Source of the DNA: Sorangium aterium
GTDB lineage: Bacteria > Myxococcota_A > Polyangia > Polyangiales > Polyangiaceae
DNA: 64,000 nucleotides
Reading direction: 5' to 3'
NCBI RefSeq assembly: GCF_028368935.1
Contig: NZ_JAQNDK010000002.1
Span: forward strand, 2,294,001-2,358,000
Under the pieces are notes generated by a model. The model searched no databases. It saw nothing but the letters and a program-made list of their open reading frames with translations, and was not told where the DNA came from. The stretch's first letter is position 1. Every line of letters begins with the position of its first letter. Shown piece after piece: positions 52,406 to 63,374 of the stretch. The position numbers and the translations under genes are program-made.

Positions 52406-53155
52406 GTGCTCCGCGTGTCCCACGACCCCTCGGCCGCCGCCGACGGCAAACAGGCCGCAACGGCGCAGCGCGCATCGGCCGAGGTAGGCCCGCTCTTCGC
52501 GCCTGGCGCGCAGGGCGGCGCGGCTGAGCCCGCATGCGCGGCGCCGGCGGACGACGTCGCGCTCGTCCGCCGGCTGCTCGCGGGGGACGAGCAGGCCTTC
52601 GAGCAGCTCGTGACCCAGCTCCACACACCCATGCTCCGGCTCGCCCGGGCGGTCGCCGGCCCGGCGGGCGCGCAGGAGGTCGTCCAGGAGACCTGGGCGG
52701 CGGTCTTCGACGGGCTCGTGCGCTTCGAGGGGCGCTCCGCGCTGAAGACATGGGTGTTCAGGATCCTGACGAACCGCGCGAGGACGTTGGGCACCCGAGA
52801 GAAGCGCATGGTCCCTGTCTCCTGGCTGGAGGACGGGGATCTGGGCAGCGAGCCGGCGGTCGATCCGGCCCGATTCGACAGCACCGGTGACTGGTCGACT
52901 CCGCCTGTTCCGTGGACGGAGCAGAGCCCGGAGGTGCTCTTGCTGCGCAAGGAGATGGGCGCCGTGCTGCAGCGAGAGCTCGAGACGCTGGCGCCTGGAC
53001 AGCGCGCGGTGGTGCTCTTGCGCGACGTGGAGGGGTGTCCCTCCGACGAGGTCTGCGAGATCCTGGGTATCAGCGAGGCGAACCAGCGGGTCCTCTTGCA
53101 CCGTGGCCGATCGAAGCTCAGGGCCGCGCTCGAGCGCTACATGACGAGGGGGTGA
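52406..53155 (+). CDS. ECF-type RNA polymerase sigma factor
   Basis: 249 residues. Sigma region 2 at about 60-130 (LLAGDEQAFEQLVTQL, VVQETWAAVFDGL, TWVFRILTNRA) and region 4 at about 190-245 (QRAVVLLRDVEGCPSDEVCEILGISEANQRVLLHRGRSKL). The 50-residue N-terminal extension is Ala/Pro rich. GTG 52406; a second in-frame GTG is at 52415. The anti-sigma gene starts 7 nt after its stop, the standard paired arrangement. Confidence 0.92.
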   Translation: MLRVSHDPSAAADGKQAATAQRASAEVGPLFAPGAQGGAAEPACAAPADDVALVRRLLAGDEQAFEQLVTQLHTPMLRLARAVAGPAGAQEVVQETWAAVFDGLVRFEGRSALKTWVFRILTNRARTLGTREKRMVPVSWLEDGDLGSEPAVDPARFDSTGDWSTPPVPWTEQSPEVLLLRKEMGAVLQRELETLAPGQRAVVLLRDVEGCPSDEVCEILGISEANQRVLLHRGRSKLRAALERYMTRG

Positions 53156-53161
53156 GCGCGC

Positions 53162-53404
53162 ATGATCGTCACGTGCTGTCAGCTGACCGAGATGATCACC
53201 GACCGGAGCGAAGGAAAGCTGTCCTCCGAGCAAGAGGAGGGCTGCGCGCGGCACCTCGCGTGGTGCGACAGGTGCCGCACCTACCTGAAGCAGATGGATC
53301 TGACGATCGACGCGCTCCAGGGGCTCCCGGGCGAGCCTGTGCACGACGACGTCCGCGCTACGCTGTTCGTGCAGTTCCAGCGGCGGAAGACCACCGCCGA
53401 CTGA
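53162..53404 (+). CDS. Small zinc-type anti-sigma factor
   Basis: 80 residues. Carries the ZAS-type motif: a Cys pair at the start (VTCCQL), then HLAWCDRC (HxxxCxxC). No transmembrane helix, so it is a soluble anti-sigma factor of the zf-HC2 group that would hold the ECF sigma factor encoded just upstream. Release is probably by oxidation or another cytoplasmic signal, since there is no membrane sensor. Six nt separate the genes. Confidence 0.85.
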   Translation: MIVTCCQLTEMITDRSEGKLSSEQEEGCARHLAWCDRCRTYLKQMDLTIDALQGLPGEPVHDDVRATLFVQFQRRKTTAD

Positions 53405-56531: not shown

Positions 56532-58088
56532 ATGCGCACTTCGCCAATGCTCGCGCTGCTCGCCGCCGCGTCGCTCGCGGCCTGCGTTCGTTCCCCTGCG
56601 CCCGCGGCGGCGCCCGATGTCGTCGCGCCGTCCGCCGACGACGTCGGGCCCTGGTACACGTCGGCGCCCGACCTCGCGGCGGTCCCGCCGGGACTGGAGG
56701 CGCCGGAGCAGCGGGCCGCGCGGCTGCAAGCCAAGGCGATCCTCGTGGATGGCCACAGCGGCGTGCCCTCGCTGCTCCTCGGCGGCTCGTTCGCTCAGGT
56801 GAGCTCGGACGACGAGCTGATGGCCGAGGAGGTCGCAAGGATCAAGGCGGCGGGCGTCACCGGCGCGTTCTTCCCGATCCACGTCAGCGCGTCCGCGTCG
56901 CCTTCGTCCTCGCGGCTCGGCGGCAGCGCCGCGCGCCGCGCGCTCGATCTCATCGAGGCGACCCACCGGCAGGTCGAGCGCCACCGCGAGACGCTGACGC
57001 TCGTGCGCAACGCGAAAGACGTGCGCCGCGCCGAGCGCGAAGGCAGGATCGCCGTGATCATGGGCATCGAGGGCGGGCACGCCATCGAGAACTCCCTGCC
57101 TGCGCTGCGCTCGTTCTACCGCCTCGGCGTCCGCACCATGGCGCTCACGCACATGACAACGAACGACTGGGCAGGCTCCGCGGGAGGAGCCCTCGATCCC
57201 GGGTATGTGCGCGACCGAGGCCTGTCCCCCTTCGGTGAGGCCGTGGTCCGCGAGATGCAACGGATCGGCATGGTGGTCGACGTCTCGCATGCATCGGACG
57301 GCACGTTCCAGGGCGTCATGAAGGTGGCCAGGGCGCCGATCATCACCTCTTCCACGATGCCCGCCGCCGGCCACCGCCGCCGCAACCTCGACGATTACAT
57401 GCTGCGCGCGATCGCGGAGAACGGCGGGCTCGTCATGGTGAACTCCTGGGCGCTCTTCCTGGACGAGGCGTATGCGGAGCAGTCGGCGCGCTTCGCGCAG
57501 AAGTACGGGGCGCACCTCAAGGAGCTCGGCGAGAGGCTCCCGGGCGACACGAGGGCGCTCCGCGAGGAGATCGAGAAGCTCAGGACCCAGGAGGGGCAGA
57601 TAACGCCGCCGCTGTGGCGGATCATCGACCATATCGACCACGTGGTGAAGGTCGCGGGGATCGAGCATGTCGCCCTCGGCTCCGTCTTCGATGGGAACGA
57701 GGCGCTCAAGGAGGGGCTCGCAGGCAGCGCCGGGGCCCCGAACATCACGCTGGAGCTCATCCGTCGCGGCTACTCGGATGCGGACATCCTCCGCCTGCTG
57801 GGCGGGAACTTCGTGCGGGTCCTCGAGCAAGCCGAGGCCTATGCGGCCTCGACGGAGACCACGCTGTCCGGGGACGGCAGCACACAGCAGCTCAGCGCGG
57901 CCGAGCTGGGCGATCTGCCGACCCAGCCCCTGCTGCCGGCGCCCCCGCCGCCGGCGCCCCCGCCGTCGCGCGGGCCGATGTCGTGGGGGGGTGTTCCGCC
58001 GTCCTCGCCGCAGCAGCGACCTGTCGCGCAGCCCTCGAAGGCCGGAGCGCCGGAGTCTCCGTCCTCGGAGCTCCTGCTGTCGCGGTAG
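56532..58088 (+). CDS. Membrane-dipeptidase-family lipoprotein with a degraded metal site
   Basis: 518 residues. Signal peptide with lipobox LAAC (Cys 18). The body is the renal-dipeptidase TIM barrel: VDGHSGVP, MGIEGGHAIEN, LTHMTTNDWAGS, VVDVSHASDG, HRRRNLDD, LLGGNFVRVLEQ. The conserved zinc/substrate residues are partly lost: DGHND reads DGHSG (Gly 77 for Asp), the ASHS histidine reads TSST (Ser 274), and GSDFDG reads GSVFDG (Val 385). His 75, the Glu of MGIEGG and His 253 remain. It is thus probably catalytically altered or inactive. A Pro-rich tail (from ~470) may span the periplasm. ATG 56532. Confidence 0.85.
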   Translation: MRTSPMLALLAAASLAACVRSPAPAAAPDVVAPSADDVGPWYTSAPDLAAVPPGLEAPEQRAARLQAKAILVDGHSGVPSLLLGGSFAQVSSDDELMAEEVARIKAAGVTGAFFPIHVSASASPSSSRLGGSAARRALDLIEATHRQVERHRETLTLVRNAKDVRRAEREGRIAVIMGIEGGHAIENSLPALRSFYRLGVRTMALTHMTTNDWAGSAGGALDPGYVRDRGLSPFGEAVVREMQRIGMVVDVSHASDGTFQGVMKVARAPIITSSTMPAAGHRRRNLDDYMLRAIAENGGLVMVNSWALFLDEAYAEQSARFAQKYGAHLKELGERLPGDTRALREEIEKLRTQEGQITPPLWRIIDHIDHVVKVAGIEHVALGSVFDGNEALKEGLAGSAGAPNITLELIRRGYSDADILRLLGGNFVRVLEQAEAYAASTETTLSGDGSTQQLSAAELGDLPTQPLLPAPPPPAPPPSRGPMSWGGVPPSSPQQRPVAQPSKAGAPESPSSELLLSR

Positions 58089-58141: not shown

Positions 58142-60415
58142 ATGCGAACGGCGGCGCGAACCCTGACCCGGCCACGAACATCCACGCTTCCGGCGGCGCT
58201 CGCCGCCTGCGTGCTCGGCGGCGCGTGCTCCGAGGCGCCGCCGCCGGGCGGCCACGGCGGCGGAGGCCAGGGCGCCGGCGCGCACCCTGTGACGACGACC
58301 ACGTACGTGAGCGCGGCCACGGGCTTTGGAGGCGCCCTGGAGGAGCTGCCGCGCGTGTTCACGGTGACCGGCGTCGTCACCGACGGCGCGGCGCCGCTCG
58401 AGGGCGCCATCGTGATGCAGGCCGGCGGAGAGCCGGCCCTCGTGACCGGCCCGGACGGCGCGTTCTCCATCGAGATCACGCGGGACATCCCGGGCCAGCC
58501 GACGGTGGTCGCGGCGAAGATCGGGTATCGGACGGACGGCATCGAGTTCGAGGTCGTCCCCGACGGGCCGGTGGAGATCGCCATTCGCCGCGCGTCGCCG
58601 CCGGACAACGCGCTCGGCTACACCTACGGCGATCCGGGCGACGGCGATCCGCACAACTCGACGCGGTTCTGCGATCACTGCCACACGACGCTCGTTGCCC
58701 AGTTCCTCGAGTCGGGGCACGCGCGGTCGGCCAGAAGCCCGCTCCTCCAGGCCATCTACGCCGGGATCTCGATGGCCCCCGCGGACGAGGCCTCGTGCAG
58801 CGCCGCGGGCGGGCGCTGGAAGGCCGGCCGCGTCCCCGGGAGCGAGGGGGCTGCCGCGATGCGGTGTTATCTCGGGAGCGGCGTGCTGCCGGATCTCAAC
58901 ACGTCCTGCGGCGGGGGAGCGCAGCCCTCATGCGACGACCCCGCGCTGCCCGAGGACGCGCGCCCGGCGGCCTTCGGCGCGTGCGCCGACTGCCACGCTG
59001 CGGGGATCGACGGCCCCGCGGGCGGGCGAGACCTCCTCGAGGCCACCGGCATCGCGTTCGAGAAGGGCAATCACTGCGACGCTTGCCACAAGATCCGCGA
59101 CGTCGATCTGAGCAAGCCGCCCGGGGTCGCCGGCGCCCTGATCGTCCAGCGCCCGCAGGAGAGGAGCTCTCCTGACCCTTCATCGAGGCTCCTGGAGGTG
59201 ATGTTCGGCCCGCGGCCGGACGTGCCGAACAGGTTCATGGGCGGCAGCTACCAGCCGAAGTTCTCGTCCTCGGAGCTCTGCGGCGGCTGCCATGAGCAGA
59301 AGCAGGCGGCGCTCCTGCCCGGCGCGGCGCTCGATCCGGTCCGCTGGCCCGACGGGCTCCCGATCCATCAGACGTTCTCCGAGTGGGCCGCGAGCTCCTG
59401 GAACCGCCCGGCCTCGCAGTGCCAGGCCTGCCACATGCCGGGGGTCCTCTCGCTGAAGAGCAGCCTCGACGTGACGAACGAGGCGAACGCGAGCGTCTCG
59501 CTCGGCTTCGTCCGCCCGGCGGGGACGGTCCGCTCCCACCTCTTCCGCGGCCCGCTGGAGGGCTCCCCGCGGCTCATCCAGGGCGCGGTCGACGTCCGCA
59601 TCGACGCCTCGGCCGCGCCGGGCGAGCTCGCGGTCACGGTCTCCCTGGCCGGCGGCGCGGCGGGCCACGCCGTCCCGACCGGGGAGCCGATGCGCGCGCT
59701 CGTCCTCCTCGTCACGGCGGAGGCGTGCGGCGCGCCCCTTGCGCCGTCGAGCGGCATGACCGTGAACGACACCGGCGGCGCGCTCGCGGAGGCGCGCGTG
59801 GGCCAGGGCGCGGCCCTGACGGGCGCCCGGCTCGCCTGGGAGGAGGGCGCGGCGCGCGCGAAGGCGGGCGACGTGGTGCGGATCGTCCGCCCGACCGGCG
59901 TCTACGACGAGTACACCGGCATCGGCCGCTTCGCGGACCCGTCGCTCGACGCGGCGGACAAGGGCCTGGAGATCCGCGCGCCGGTCGGCGAGGCGCGGGT
60001 GGTCGCCGCGGGGGGCGGCGCGATCACCCTGAGCGGCGCGATCCCCGCGCAGGACGGGGATATCGTCTACCTCGGCGCGCCCCTCGCCGCGCCGACCGTG
60101 GATGTCGAGCTACCCGCGGCCGCGTTCGCCGGCGCCGCGGGCTACACCTTCGCCAAGGTGCTCGTCGATCCGGCGGGCGCGCGGCACGCGCCGCAGCACC
60201 GCGCCGTCGACATCGCCAGCGACAACCGCATCGCACCGGGGAGCGTCGCGGTGACGTCGCACGGCTTCGCGATCCCCGCGGGCTGCTCGGCGGCCGCGAA
60301 CGTCACCGCCACGCTGCTCTACCGGCCTGTCCCGCTCGCCCTCGCGCAGGAGCGCGGTGTCGGCGCGCGCGATTACCTGGTCGCCACGGCGTCCTCGCCT
60401 GTGCCGCTCGACTGA
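58142..60415 (+). CDS. Five-heme c-type cytochrome lipoprotein
   Basis: 757 residues. Lipobox-like GGAC near residue 29 after a signal peptide. A carboxypeptidase-regulatory-like beta domain follows (VTGVVTDGAAPLEGAIV, VTGPDGAFSIEI). Five CxxCH heme sites: CDHCH 177, CADCH 281, CDACH 312, CGGCH 380, CQACH 427. The C-terminal third has no heme motif and is beta-rich. The N-terminal lipid anchor and exported location fit electron transfer at the outer or inner membrane. 53 nt separate it from the dipeptidase-like gene, so cotranscription is likely. It converges with the molybdoenzyme genes. Confidence 0.85.
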   Translation: MRTAARTLTRPRTSTLPAALAACVLGGACSEAPPPGGHGGGGQGAGAHPVTTTTYVSAATGFGGALEELPRVFTVTGVVTDGAAPLEGAIVMQAGGEPALVTGPDGAFSIEITRDIPGQPTVVAAKIGYRTDGIEFEVVPDGPVEIAIRRASPPDNALGYTYGDPGDGDPHNSTRFCDHCHTTLVAQFLESGHARSARSPLLQAIYAGISMAPADEASCSAAGGRWKAGRVPGSEGAAAMRCYLGSGVLPDLNTSCGGGAQPSCDDPALPEDARPAAFGACADCHAAGIDGPAGGRDLLEATGIAFEKGNHCDACHKIRDVDLSKPPGVAGALIVQRPQERSSPDPSSRLLEVMFGPRPDVPNRFMGGSYQPKFSSSELCGGCHEQKQAALLPGAALDPVRWPDGLPIHQTFSEWAASSWNRPASQCQACHMPGVLSLKSSLDVTNEANASVSLGFVRPAGTVRSHLFRGPLEGSPRLIQGAVDVRIDASAAPGELAVTVSLAGGAAGHAVPTGEPMRALVLLVTAEACGAPLAPSSGMTVNDTGGALAEARVGQGAALTGARLAWEEGAARAKAGDVVRIVRPTGVYDEYTGIGRFADPSLDAADKGLEIRAPVGEARVVAAGGGAITLSGAIPAQDGDIVYLGAPLAAPTVDVELPAAAFAGAAGYTFAKVLVDPAGARHAPQHRAVDIASDNRIAPGSVAVTSHGFAIPAGCSAAANVTATLLYRPVPLALAQERGVGARDYLVATASSPVPLD

Positions 60416-60427
60416 GCAGCGCGGAGA

Positions 60428-60919
60428 TCAGGAGAAGACGAGGAGCTGCACGGCGCTCTCGCGCAGCGTGGTCTTTAGCCACCGGATCTGCACCTCCTTC
60501 TCCGGGAGCGCCGCCTCCGCGAACGCCTTGAGCCCCTCGTCGCGCGCCGCGTGCCCCGCCTCGCCGAGGAGCACCCAGCCGATCTCGCAGTCGTGCGCCA
60601 TCGGGTAGAGGCGCCGCAGGTCGGCGAACAGCTCGGCGCCGGCCACGCCCGTCCGAGGGCGCACCTTCGCGAGGGCGCGGCGCGCGCCGCTCCGCAGCTC
60701 CTCGCCGATCCGGCGCTCCAGCGCGCCCTCGAGGCGCACGCCGTGCTTCCGGGCGAACGGCCGCAGCCCCTCGGCGCGGCGCTCGCACTGCGCGGCGAAG
60801 CGCAGGCAGAGATGGGCGATATCGAGGTGGTCTGCGTGCCTCTCGGCCGCGGCGCGGAACGACTCGCCGAGGTTGGCCTCGGCCTCGTGGAGCCTGTGGA
60901 GCGCGTTTCCCAGGAGCAA
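60428..60919 (-). CDS. Small helical protein downstream of the molybdoenzyme
   Basis: 163 residues, helical, with an His/Glu-rich ferritin-like first half (HADHLDIAHLCLRFAAQCERRAEGLRPF) but no complete EXXH set. TTG start at 60919 is supported by GAGGAGG 6 nt upstream and lies 17 nt after the stop of the molybdoenzyme, so the two are cotranscribed. Its start is not ATG, so it is easily missed. Possibly a metal- or enzyme-binding accessory protein; function unknown. Confidence 0.55.
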   Translation of the reverse strand: MLLGNALHRLHEAEANLGESFRAAAERHADHLDIAHLCLRFAAQCERRAEGLRPFARKHGVRLEGALERRIGEELRSGARRALAKVRPRTGVAGAELFADLRRLYPMAHDCEIGWVLLGEAGHAARDEGLKAFAEAALPEKEVQIRWLKTTLRESAVQLLVFS

Positions 60920-60935: not shown

Positions 60936-63374
60936 TCAGCCGCCTGGCCTGGGGTTGGATTCCTCGGCCGCCGGACCGCCCACCGTGGGTGGCACGACGA
61001 CGCCCGGGGCGGGCGCCGCGGCCCCCGTCGTCGGGGCGGGAGAGGGCACCCCGCCGCTCGCGGCCACCCTGAGGAGCTTGACCTTCGCCACCTTGAAATA
61101 GGGCTGCTTGCTCACCGGATCCCACGCGGTGATCGTCAGCTCGTTCGCGGCGCGCGGCCAGCGGTGGCTCCCGGGGTCCTCGTCCCAGGTGCCGTAGTGG
61201 AAGGGAAGGAACACGGCGCCTTCGCGGATCTCGCTGATCCGCGCGCGCACCACCACGTGGCCGCGCGGCGACTCGACGCGGACCCAGTCGCCCTCCTCGA
61301 TGGCGAGCCGGCGCGCGTCGGGCGCGGCGATCTCGACCCAGGCGTCGGGCGCGGCCCGCTGGAGCTGCGGCGCGCGCGCCGTCTTCGTCCGCGTGTGGAA
61401 CTGGTAGATCGTCCGCCCCGTGGTGAGCAGAAACGGGTACTCGTCGTCCGCCTCCTCGATGGGAGGCAGGTACTCGGACGCGCGGAGGAACGCGCGGCCA
61501 GCCGGGTTCAGCGCCCGGAACTCCGTCTCCGAGCGCGCGCCGCCGGTGTCGAGATCGTGGCCGAAGTCCTGCGCGACCTCCGGATCGCTGAAGAAGCGGT
61601 GATCCGTGTAGAGCCGCGGCGTCCCTTCCGGGCGCTCGTCGGTGCACGGCCACTGGATCCCGCCGCCGCGAAGCCTGTCGTAGGTGATTCCTGTGTAATC
61701 GCAGGGGCGGCCCTTCGAGCACACCTTCCACGCCTCGAACGCCTCCTCGGGCGTGCGCCACTTGACGAGCGGCGCGCCGTCCTTGTCCCGGAGATCCATC
61801 CGCCGCGCGTAATCGAGGAGGATATCGAGATCCGACCGCGCCTCGCCCGGCGGCTCGACGGCCTTCTCGGTGAGGTGCACCGTCCGGTCCGTGTTCGTGA
61901 ACGTGCCAGTCTTCTCTCCCCAGATCGCCGCGGGCAGCACGATGTCGGCGTGGCGCGCCGTCTCGGTGAGGAACGCGTCCTGGACGACGACGAAGAGGGG
62001 CTCCTGATCCAGGGTGGAGCGGAGGCGGCGCAGCTCGGGGATCGAGACCGCGGGGTTGGTGGCGATGATCCACAGCAGCTTGATCGAGCCCTCCGCCGCG
62101 TAGCGGAGGATCTTCATCGCGTGGGTGGGCGCTCCCCAGCTCGGGATCACGAGGGGATCCACGTTCCAGATCCGCGCGAGCTCCTCCATGTGCCGCCGGT
62201 TCCGGTGGTTGCGGAAGCCGGGCATCTCGCCGTTGCAGCCCGTCTCGCGGGTGTTCTGCGAGGTCGGCTGCCCGTTCGACTGGATGATGCCGCAGCCGGG
62301 CCGCCCGATCATCCCCCGGACGAGGTGGATGTTGTTCACCTGGACGGCGGCGGCGGTGGCCTGGTTCGACTGATAGACCCCCTGGAGGCAGGCGGAGAAG
62401 AGGCGCTCTGCGGAGCCGAGGACGCGCGCCGCCTCGCGGATCCGATCGGCCGGCACGCCGCAGATCGACGCCGCGCGCGCGGGCGGGTAGCGGTCGACGA
62501 GCGCGGCCAGCGCGTCGAGGCCGATCGTGTATGCGTCGACGAACGCGCGATCGAGCCAGCCGTTCCTGAGGATCTCGTGGAGGATCGCGTTGAGCAGGGC
62601 GACGTTGGTTCCGCCCTTGATAGGGAGGTGGACGTCGGCGCGCCGCGCGGGGACGCTGCGGCGCGGGTCGACGACCACGAGCCGCGGCGGGTCGGGGCCA
62701 TCGAGCCGATCGAGCATGCGCATCCAGAAGACGGTCTGCGTCTCGGCGACGTTGTAGCCGACGAGGAACAGCGTATCGCAGTGGTCCACGTCGGACATCG
62801 AGCCTGGCTGCCCGTCGCACCCGAAGCTCTCGCGCATCGACTGCGCCGCCGTCGCGGTGCAGAGGCGGGTGTTGCCGTCCACGTGCGGCGTGCCCAGGCC
62901 GCCGCGGGCGAGGAGCGAGAGCGTGTAGTACTCCTCGAGCAGGAGCTGCCCGGAGCTGTAGAAGCCGAACGCGCCGGCGCCGTGCTTCGCCCGGATCTCC
63001 CTGGAGCGCGCGACGATCGCGCCCATGGCGGTGTCCCAGTCGGCCTCGACGAGCCTCTCGCCGCGGCGGACGAGCGGCCGGGTGAGCCGGTCGCGCGCGC
63101 GGTTCGCCTGCCAGCCGAAGAGGCCTTTGGGCCCGAGGCGACCGTGGTTGGGGTGGTCCGCGCCCCGCCCGCGGACGCCGACCATGCGCCCGTCCTTGAC
63201 CGCGATGTCGAGGGCGCAGCCGTTCGCGCAGAGCACGCAGGCGGAATGCACCCAGCGCTCCACGTCGCCCTCGGCGAGGCCGGGATCGAGGAGCTGATCG
63301 ACCCGTGTCGGCCACGGTTCGTCCCGCCCGTACGGCGTCCGGACGCCCCAGGGATCCGCGATCCGGTCCAGCAT
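60936..63374 (-). CDS. Molybdopterin oxidoreductase (assimilatory nitrate reductase/formate dehydrogenase type)
   Basis: 812 residues, DMSO-reductase superfamily. N-terminal cluster motif CVLCANGC (Cys 46, 49, 53). The expected fourth Cys of the 4Fe-4S site (in GRLCxKG) is Gly 81 in GRLGPKG. Molybdopterin motifs follow: GQPGSMSDVDHCDT, VVDPRRSVPARRADVHLPI, GRPGCGIIQSNGQPTSQN, FTNTDRTVHLTE, LPFHYGTWDED. No Tat twin-Arg signal at the start, so it is probably cytoplasmic. ATG 63374; longer in-frame reading is possible. Paired with the small gene downstream. Substrate not settled. Confidence 0.85.
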   Translation of the reverse strand: MLDRIADPWGVRTPYGRDEPWPTRVDQLLDPGLAEGDVERWVHSACVLCANGCALDIAVKDGRMVGVRGRGADHPNHGRLGPKGLFGWQANRARDRLTRPLVRRGERLVEADWDTAMGAIVARSREIRAKHGAGAFGFYSSGQLLLEEYYTLSLLARGGLGTPHVDGNTRLCTATAAQSMRESFGCDGQPGSMSDVDHCDTLFLVGYNVAETQTVFWMRMLDRLDGPDPPRLVVVDPRRSVPARRADVHLPIKGGTNVALLNAILHEILRNGWLDRAFVDAYTIGLDALAALVDRYPPARAASICGVPADRIREAARVLGSAERLFSACLQGVYQSNQATAAAVQVNNIHLVRGMIGRPGCGIIQSNGQPTSQNTRETGCNGEMPGFRNHRNRRHMEELARIWNVDPLVIPSWGAPTHAMKILRYAAEGSIKLLWIIATNPAVSIPELRRLRSTLDQEPLFVVVQDAFLTETARHADIVLPAAIWGEKTGTFTNTDRTVHLTEKAVEPPGEARSDLDILLDYARRMDLRDKDGAPLVKWRTPEEAFEAWKVCSKGRPCDYTGITYDRLRGGGIQWPCTDERPEGTPRLYTDHRFFSDPEVAQDFGHDLDTGGARSETEFRALNPAGRAFLRASEYLPPIEEADDEYPFLLTTGRTIYQFHTRTKTARAPQLQRAAPDAWVEIAAPDARRLAIEEGDWVRVESPRGHVVVRARISEIREGAVFLPFHYGTWDEDPGSHRWPRAANELTITAWDPVSKQPYFKVAKVKLLRVAASGGVPSPAPTTGAAAPAPGVVVPPTVGGPAAEESNPRPGG

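Follow-up and report, generated by a model that had tools for sequence, protein, structure and literature searches.

A probable Sorangium lipoprotein of the M19 dipeptidase family predicted to have lost its two-zinc site

Genes and protein layout at the locus

The window (the whole stretch of 64,000 nucleotides from Sorangium aterium analysed here) contains the gene of a predicted M19 pseudo-dipeptidase lipoprotein at 56532..58088 on the + strand, an open frame of 518 codons plus the stop. Its hydrophobic N-terminus (56532..56585, +) ends in a lipobox, LAAC with Cys18, recognised by eye as a probable lipoprotein signal, and the product is probably exported and putatively lipidated. The Peptidase_M19 domain (PF01244) covers residues 65-433 (56724..57830, +) and positions 2-319 of the 319 of the profile, and its score of 292.3 bits against a cut-off of 26 places the protein in the family. 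Within its own genome the gene is the top Peptidase_M19 match (E 6.8e-87), above the other M19 genes. The NCBIfam search of the protein returned no family at E 0.1. The nearest solved chains found by phmmer are SCO3058 (3id7, E 3.1e-54) and human renal dipeptidase (1itq, E 1.5e-50).

Genes of this kind, which lack metal ligands of the family and are called disarmed below, were found six times in five of the six Sorangium genomes examined, since genome G001 carries two; no copy was found in G005, an assembly of 1,270 contigs. The lipobox LAAC can be read by eye in all six, in the second copy of G001 (L029) only with a GTG start. An order-wide search gave matches at E 1e-70 or better in 18 of 183 genomes, all in one family and five genera, and two scans of viral contigs for further relatives found none. 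The 13 orthologues found in four sister genera all have the full set of metal and substrate residues, and are referred to as intact.

The C-terminal 74 residues, counted from an LSG motif (57864..58085, +), form a proline-rich tail (24% Pro). Across the six Sorangium genes the tail from this motif is 64-76 residues long with 24-35% Pro, and it ends in E-L/I-x-x-S-R in four of them (the window gene, L008, L009 and L010); L011 and L029 have closely similar endings. Among the intact orthologues, L061 has 41 residues after the motif at 17% proline, and the other 12 of the 13 end soon after the domain, in 11 cases within 12-23 residues of the LSG motif; L071 is without the motif, and the end of L068, which has another LSG upstream, was read from the printed sequence. 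The tail is thus longer in all six disarmed genes than in the intact orthologues, and it is a possible partner-binding element.

Downstream on the same strand, 53 bases after the M19 gene, lies a multihaem cytochrome gene (58142-60415, +), whose product carries five CxxCH motifs and begins with a stretch, LGGAC, that resembles a lipobox. The original prediction had mentioned this heme lipoprotein as a neighbour. A meaningful link to it was not supported when other genomes were compared: the cytochrome did not turn up close to the M19 copies of four other Sorangium genomes. It had no tblastn match at 1e-8 in loci L030, L031, L033, L034, L035 and L036, an absence that is weak for L030 because that locus reaches only about 2 kb past the M19 gene. 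A conserved association of the M19 gene with the cytochrome was rejected on these grounds. Upstream, a DEAD-box helicase gene and a gene for 148 amino acids have matches only in G002 and G004 among the Sorangium genomes and loci compared. Generally, no conserved operon and no neighbour that would name a pathway or a partner was found among the Sorangium copies compared, and no siderophore gene was seen beside the M19 gene.

Further genes of the window were recorded in passing. A molybdopterin oxidoreductase with an Fe4S4 domain is encoded at 60936-63374 on the - strand and adjoins a gene for a 163-aa protein without Pfam match (60428-60919, -). A Sigma-70-type factor gene (52406-53404, +) is followed by one for an 80-aa protein, whose Cys/His pattern resembles by eye that of an anti-sigma zinc finger, and the pair is kept in L030.

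Metal and substrate positions

Residues were compared in the numbering of 1itq, counted along the phmmer alignment of the window protein to that chain, and 3id7 was aligned as well. We take the M19 metal ligands to be H20, D22, E125, H198, H219 and D288, and the substrate contacts to be H152 and R230. According to the alignment, four of these positions are kept in all six Sorangium genes: His75 (56754..56756, +) and His253 (57288..57290, +) are the counterparts of the metal ligands H20 and H198, and His207 (57150..57152, +) and Arg284 (57381..57383, +) those of H152 and R230. Glu180 (57069..57071, +) corresponds to the bridging E125, which is replaced by Asp in two of the six genes. Gly77 stands where the metal ligand D22 is expected (56760..56762, +), with G, S or A in five of the six genes and D in L029. 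At the position of D288 there is Val385 (57684..57686, +), with V or S in all six, and H219 is missing from all six at Ser273-Ser274 (57348..57353, +), a gap column which holds His in 13 of 13 intact orthologues.

The original prediction gave the coordinates and frame of the gene correctly, and its three changed residues (Gly 77, Ser 274, Val 385) are right as well. For Ser274 the site is right, and the change is better described as a His missing between Ser273 and Ser274 than as His-to-Ser, because both the phmmer alignment and an alignment of 29 sequences place a one-residue gap opposite H219. The same prediction spoke of a loss of metal and substrate residues; as His207 and Arg284, the counterparts of H152 and R230, are present, it is chiefly metal ligands (D22, H219, D288) that have gone. 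Compared by alignment with what an active two-zinc M19 dipeptidase needs, the protein has the substrate contacts and does not have all the metal ligands. Nor does the alignment reveal a conserved replacement ligand, as positions 76, 273, 274 and 385 are Ser or Val. A sequencing or assembly error was considered for these losses and rejected, since those of H219 and D288 recur in six genes of five separate genomes.

To judge how rare such changes are, 106 further homologues were surveyed (29 loci among the matches listed, 60 regions and 17 loci), a sample weighted to strong matches, mostly at E 1e-40 or better, in which the columns of ten odd rows were checked by eye. The disarmed protein, at E 6.8e-87, is itself such a strong match. 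H219, D288 and R230 are each present in 106 of 106, and H20 and H198 each in 105. D22 is found in 97, five of the nine exceptions being divergent starts that read as a gap. E125 is found in 90, with Q in the other 16, and H152 in 88, with W in 16 and Y in 2. Because E125 and H152 vary in this way across the wider family, Asp in place of E125, seen in two of the six Sorangium genes, says little when taken alone. Loss of H219 or D288 occurs in none of the 106 and in none of 23 intact seed-alignment sequences, that is in 0 of 126 distinct proteins, as three are common to both sets; by this comparison the unusual part of the Sorangium pattern is the loss of H219 and D288.

Two side observations come from the same material. 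Homologues with Gln for E125 and with Trp for H152 apparently form whole subfamilies, and L103 and L105, M19 homologues elsewhere in the phylum, read TPQYHHRD and HCEYHHRD at the H20/D22 positions while retaining H219 and D288; they may be other metal-site variants.

The survey bears on the idea that the protein is still a dipeptidase in which unusual residues or solvent complete the two metal sites. The Peptidase_M19 score, higher than that of the other M19 genes of the genome, agrees with it, some proteins predicted to be inactive have proved active, and the variation seen in the survey at E125 and H152 implies a pocket that tolerates some change. However, two or three metal ligands are gone together, Gly, Ser or Ala, a gap, and Ser or Val are not usual zinc ligands, and H219 and D288 are never replaced among the 106 survey homologues, so we regard continued dipeptidase activity as highly improbable.

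An AlphaFold2 model of the window protein, made with four sequences in the input, is of low confidence (pLDDT 64.9, pTM 0.71). Its best structural matches by both Foldseek and VIA-align are M19 entries; in VIA-align rows 1-17 are all M19 (Z 28.9-38.0), while the next row has 15.4. Together with the full-length profile match, this upholds the earlier statement that the M19 fold persists. Most of the pocket is modelled at low confidence, and residues 77, 207, 284 and 385 lie in segments with pLDDT below 50.

If the old pocket had been given a new use, it might be better preserved than the rest of the domain. In the 13 intact orthologues 131 columns do not vary; 130 of these have a residue in the window protein, and the remaining one is H219. 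All six Sorangium genes leave 83 of the 131 unchanged. Unchanged columns make up 4 of the 8 metal and substrate positions versus 79 of the 123 other invariant columns, and pocket retention was rejected on this count as a sign of a repurposed site. These data show no particular protection of the pocket and so lend no positive support to a ligand bound there. Besides, Y117, D289 and F305 are changed in all six Sorangium genes and Y202 in five of them, a pattern to be expected if the original substrate is not bound as before.

These counts also weigh on a reading in which the protein has been repurposed around one metal ion, with His75, Glu/Asp180 and His253 as a putative two-His-one-carboxylate site serving other chemistry or metal sensing. 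The two histidines are kept in all six genes and position 180 is always Glu or Asp, which is what such a site would need. Against it stand the lack of any excess pocket retention, the changes at Y117, D289 and F305 in six genes and at Y202 in five, and the modelling of much of the pocket at pLDDT below 50, so that the closeness of the three residues is putative. We consider a single-metal protein unlikely.

Order of loss and selection

In a maximum-likelihood tree of 29 sequences (LG+F+G4, branch supports from the unrooted tree), the six Sorangium genes form one clade with support 100 and a stem of 0.31. The nearest intact relative of the disarmed clade is L061 (support 79). Within the clade the five genes other than L029 are grouped with support 100, and L029 branches first. 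L029 keeps D22 and Y202 and is without H219 and D288. On these residues the simplest order would place the loss of H219 and D288 on the stem and that of D22 later than the split of L029, although D22 could also have been restored in L029 rather than retained. The loss looks stepwise, because the paralogue that keeps D22 is the first to branch, and L029 is, on this reading of the alignment, a living intermediate of residue loss.

Selection was estimated as omega by an MG codon model with F3x4 frequencies, using our own MG94/GY94 script. All six genes together have an omega of 0.37, which becomes 0.43 when L029 is left out, and omega = 1 is rejected in both cases (2dlnL 89.3 and 46.8, respectively). 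As controls, two families of intact M19 paralogues from Sorangium gave 0.12 and 0.13, and six intact orthologues of one sister genus gave 0.09. When 19 genes were fitted on one joint tree, omega was 0.45 in the crown of the disarmed clade versus 0.10 elsewhere (lnL -12556.67 against -12643.84 for a single omega), and giving the stem an omega of its own yielded 0.098, 0.379 and 0.449; the background value is rough, as many background branches are saturated with up to 7.5 neutral changes per codon, which makes the same-genus paralogues the better control. Omega in the disarmed clade is thus three to four times that of its intact relatives (0.37-0.45 versus 0.09-0.13). NG86 pair counts put dN close to dS for several Sorangium pairs, a near-neutral signal which we attribute to the method ignoring the high third-position G+C (0.95).

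The reading frames are intact as well. There is no internal stop in the six genes, versus 16.4 expected without constraint over the core of the six-gene tree, or 7.5 if the branch lengths are taken from the omega = 1 fit, where they are shorter. The six-gene alignment has 15 distinct gap intervals, every one a multiple of three, although not all of them are independent events. Moreover, 14 core positions are fixed in all six genes to a residue absent from the 13 intact orthologues. The disarmed M19 gene is under relaxed constraint but is kept.

A gene on its way to loss, its enzyme unnecessary in Sorangium and the functionless protein decaying slowly, would also give a relaxed omega, and this counts against a retained function. 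The rise of omega above that of the intact relatives fits such decay, as does the near equality of dN and dS if NG86 is taken alone, and one of the six Sorangium genomes has no copy, though in the assembly of many contigs named above. Slow decay is nevertheless decidedly unlikely in our judgement: omega is significantly below 1, stops are lacking, every gap interval is in frame, and the 14 core positions have been newly fixed throughout the clade.

A predicted role without hydrolysis

From the sequences, we consider it probable that the gene encodes an M19 pseudo-dipeptidase lipoprotein which was disarmed in a common ancestor and has a non-hydrolytic binding or scaffold role. The ancestor would have been an intact zinc dipeptidase of the renal-dipeptidase type, and the disarming, with H219 and D288 going first and D22 later, would date to the common ancestor of the six Sorangium genes. 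Without D22, H219 and D288 the standard two-zinc site presumably cannot form, so the protein is not expected to hydrolyse dipeptides in the manner of the family. It appears to have retained the barrel, the lipid anchor and some of the pocket residues (H20, E/D125, H152, H198 and R230), and its frame is under selection; for this reason it most likely works without hydrolysis. It may serve in the envelope as a binding or scaffold protein, for a peptide-like ligand in the old pocket or for a protein partner, the latter perhaps held through the proline-rich tail. The residue losses, their fixation in Sorangium, the open frames and the purifying selection are observed; that the protein is inactive and lipidated, that it binds a ligand or partner, and what its tail does are inferred.

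Sequence and fold make the protein a member of M19; judged by its residues, it is not expected to be an active dipeptidase of that family. The original prediction of a pseudo-enzyme stands at the level of sequence: the fold is kept, the metal-site losses are fixed in the genus and selection is purifying. Catalytic residues lost from a gene kept by selection, which is what defines a pseudo-enzyme, are both found here, and inactivity is predicted. A more specific and doubtful proposal is that this is a Sorangium-specific M19 lipoprotein whose ruined two-zinc pocket became a receptor, with one metal or none, for a peptide-like ligand that the proline-rich tail passes on or displays; the genes would then form a stepwise series from enzyme to envelope binding protein, with L029 as the intermediate.

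Several known proteins offer comparison. SCO3058 (3id7) and human DPEP1 (1itq) share with the Sorangium protein the fold, the full domain length and the counterparts of H20, E125, H152, H198 and R230; unlike them, the Sorangium protein is without D22, H219 and D288 and has an added proline-rich tail. Human DPEP3 (6vgo) is an M19 member without dipeptidase activity according to the title of Hayashi et al. 2020, as cited in PMC12229892. It is likened to the Sorangium protein by this reported inactivity and not by residues, and it is mammalian. PvdM of Pseudomonas (3b40), a periplasmic bacterial protein of M19 fold, is said in the review PMC13119372 to assist the action of PvdP on ferribactin as pyoverdine matures. 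The likeness is one of fold and description, and unlike the Sorangium protein PvdM is still called a dipeptidase there. The Foldseek matches also include structures of GliJ mutated at Asp38 and Asp304 (5lx4, 5lx7, 5lx1), which, judged from spacing, would be the D22 and D288 positions; those are engineered single changes, whereas the Sorangium changes are natural and combined, with the loss of H219 in addition. In the open-licence literature no Sorangium pseudo-dipeptidase was found among the matches listed, and the word-searched text of a review of inactive metallopeptidases (PMC11266112) has no mention of M19, dipeptidase or DPEP.

The Sorangium case is, as far as residues can predict it, a genus-wide bacterial M19 pseudo-dipeptidase in which the steps of loss are still visible. 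As related Sorangium species keep the gene unbroken, a job other than cutting is most likely. Living genes allow an order of loss to be proposed, in which H219 and D288 go first, D22 follows and E125 drifts, and the intact orthologues of the sister genera serve as controls for the series. The case is also a warning against annotation by family, since no other gene of its genome matches Peptidase_M19 as well as the disarmed one. Enzymes whose chemistry is lost but which selection keeps show how new functions start.
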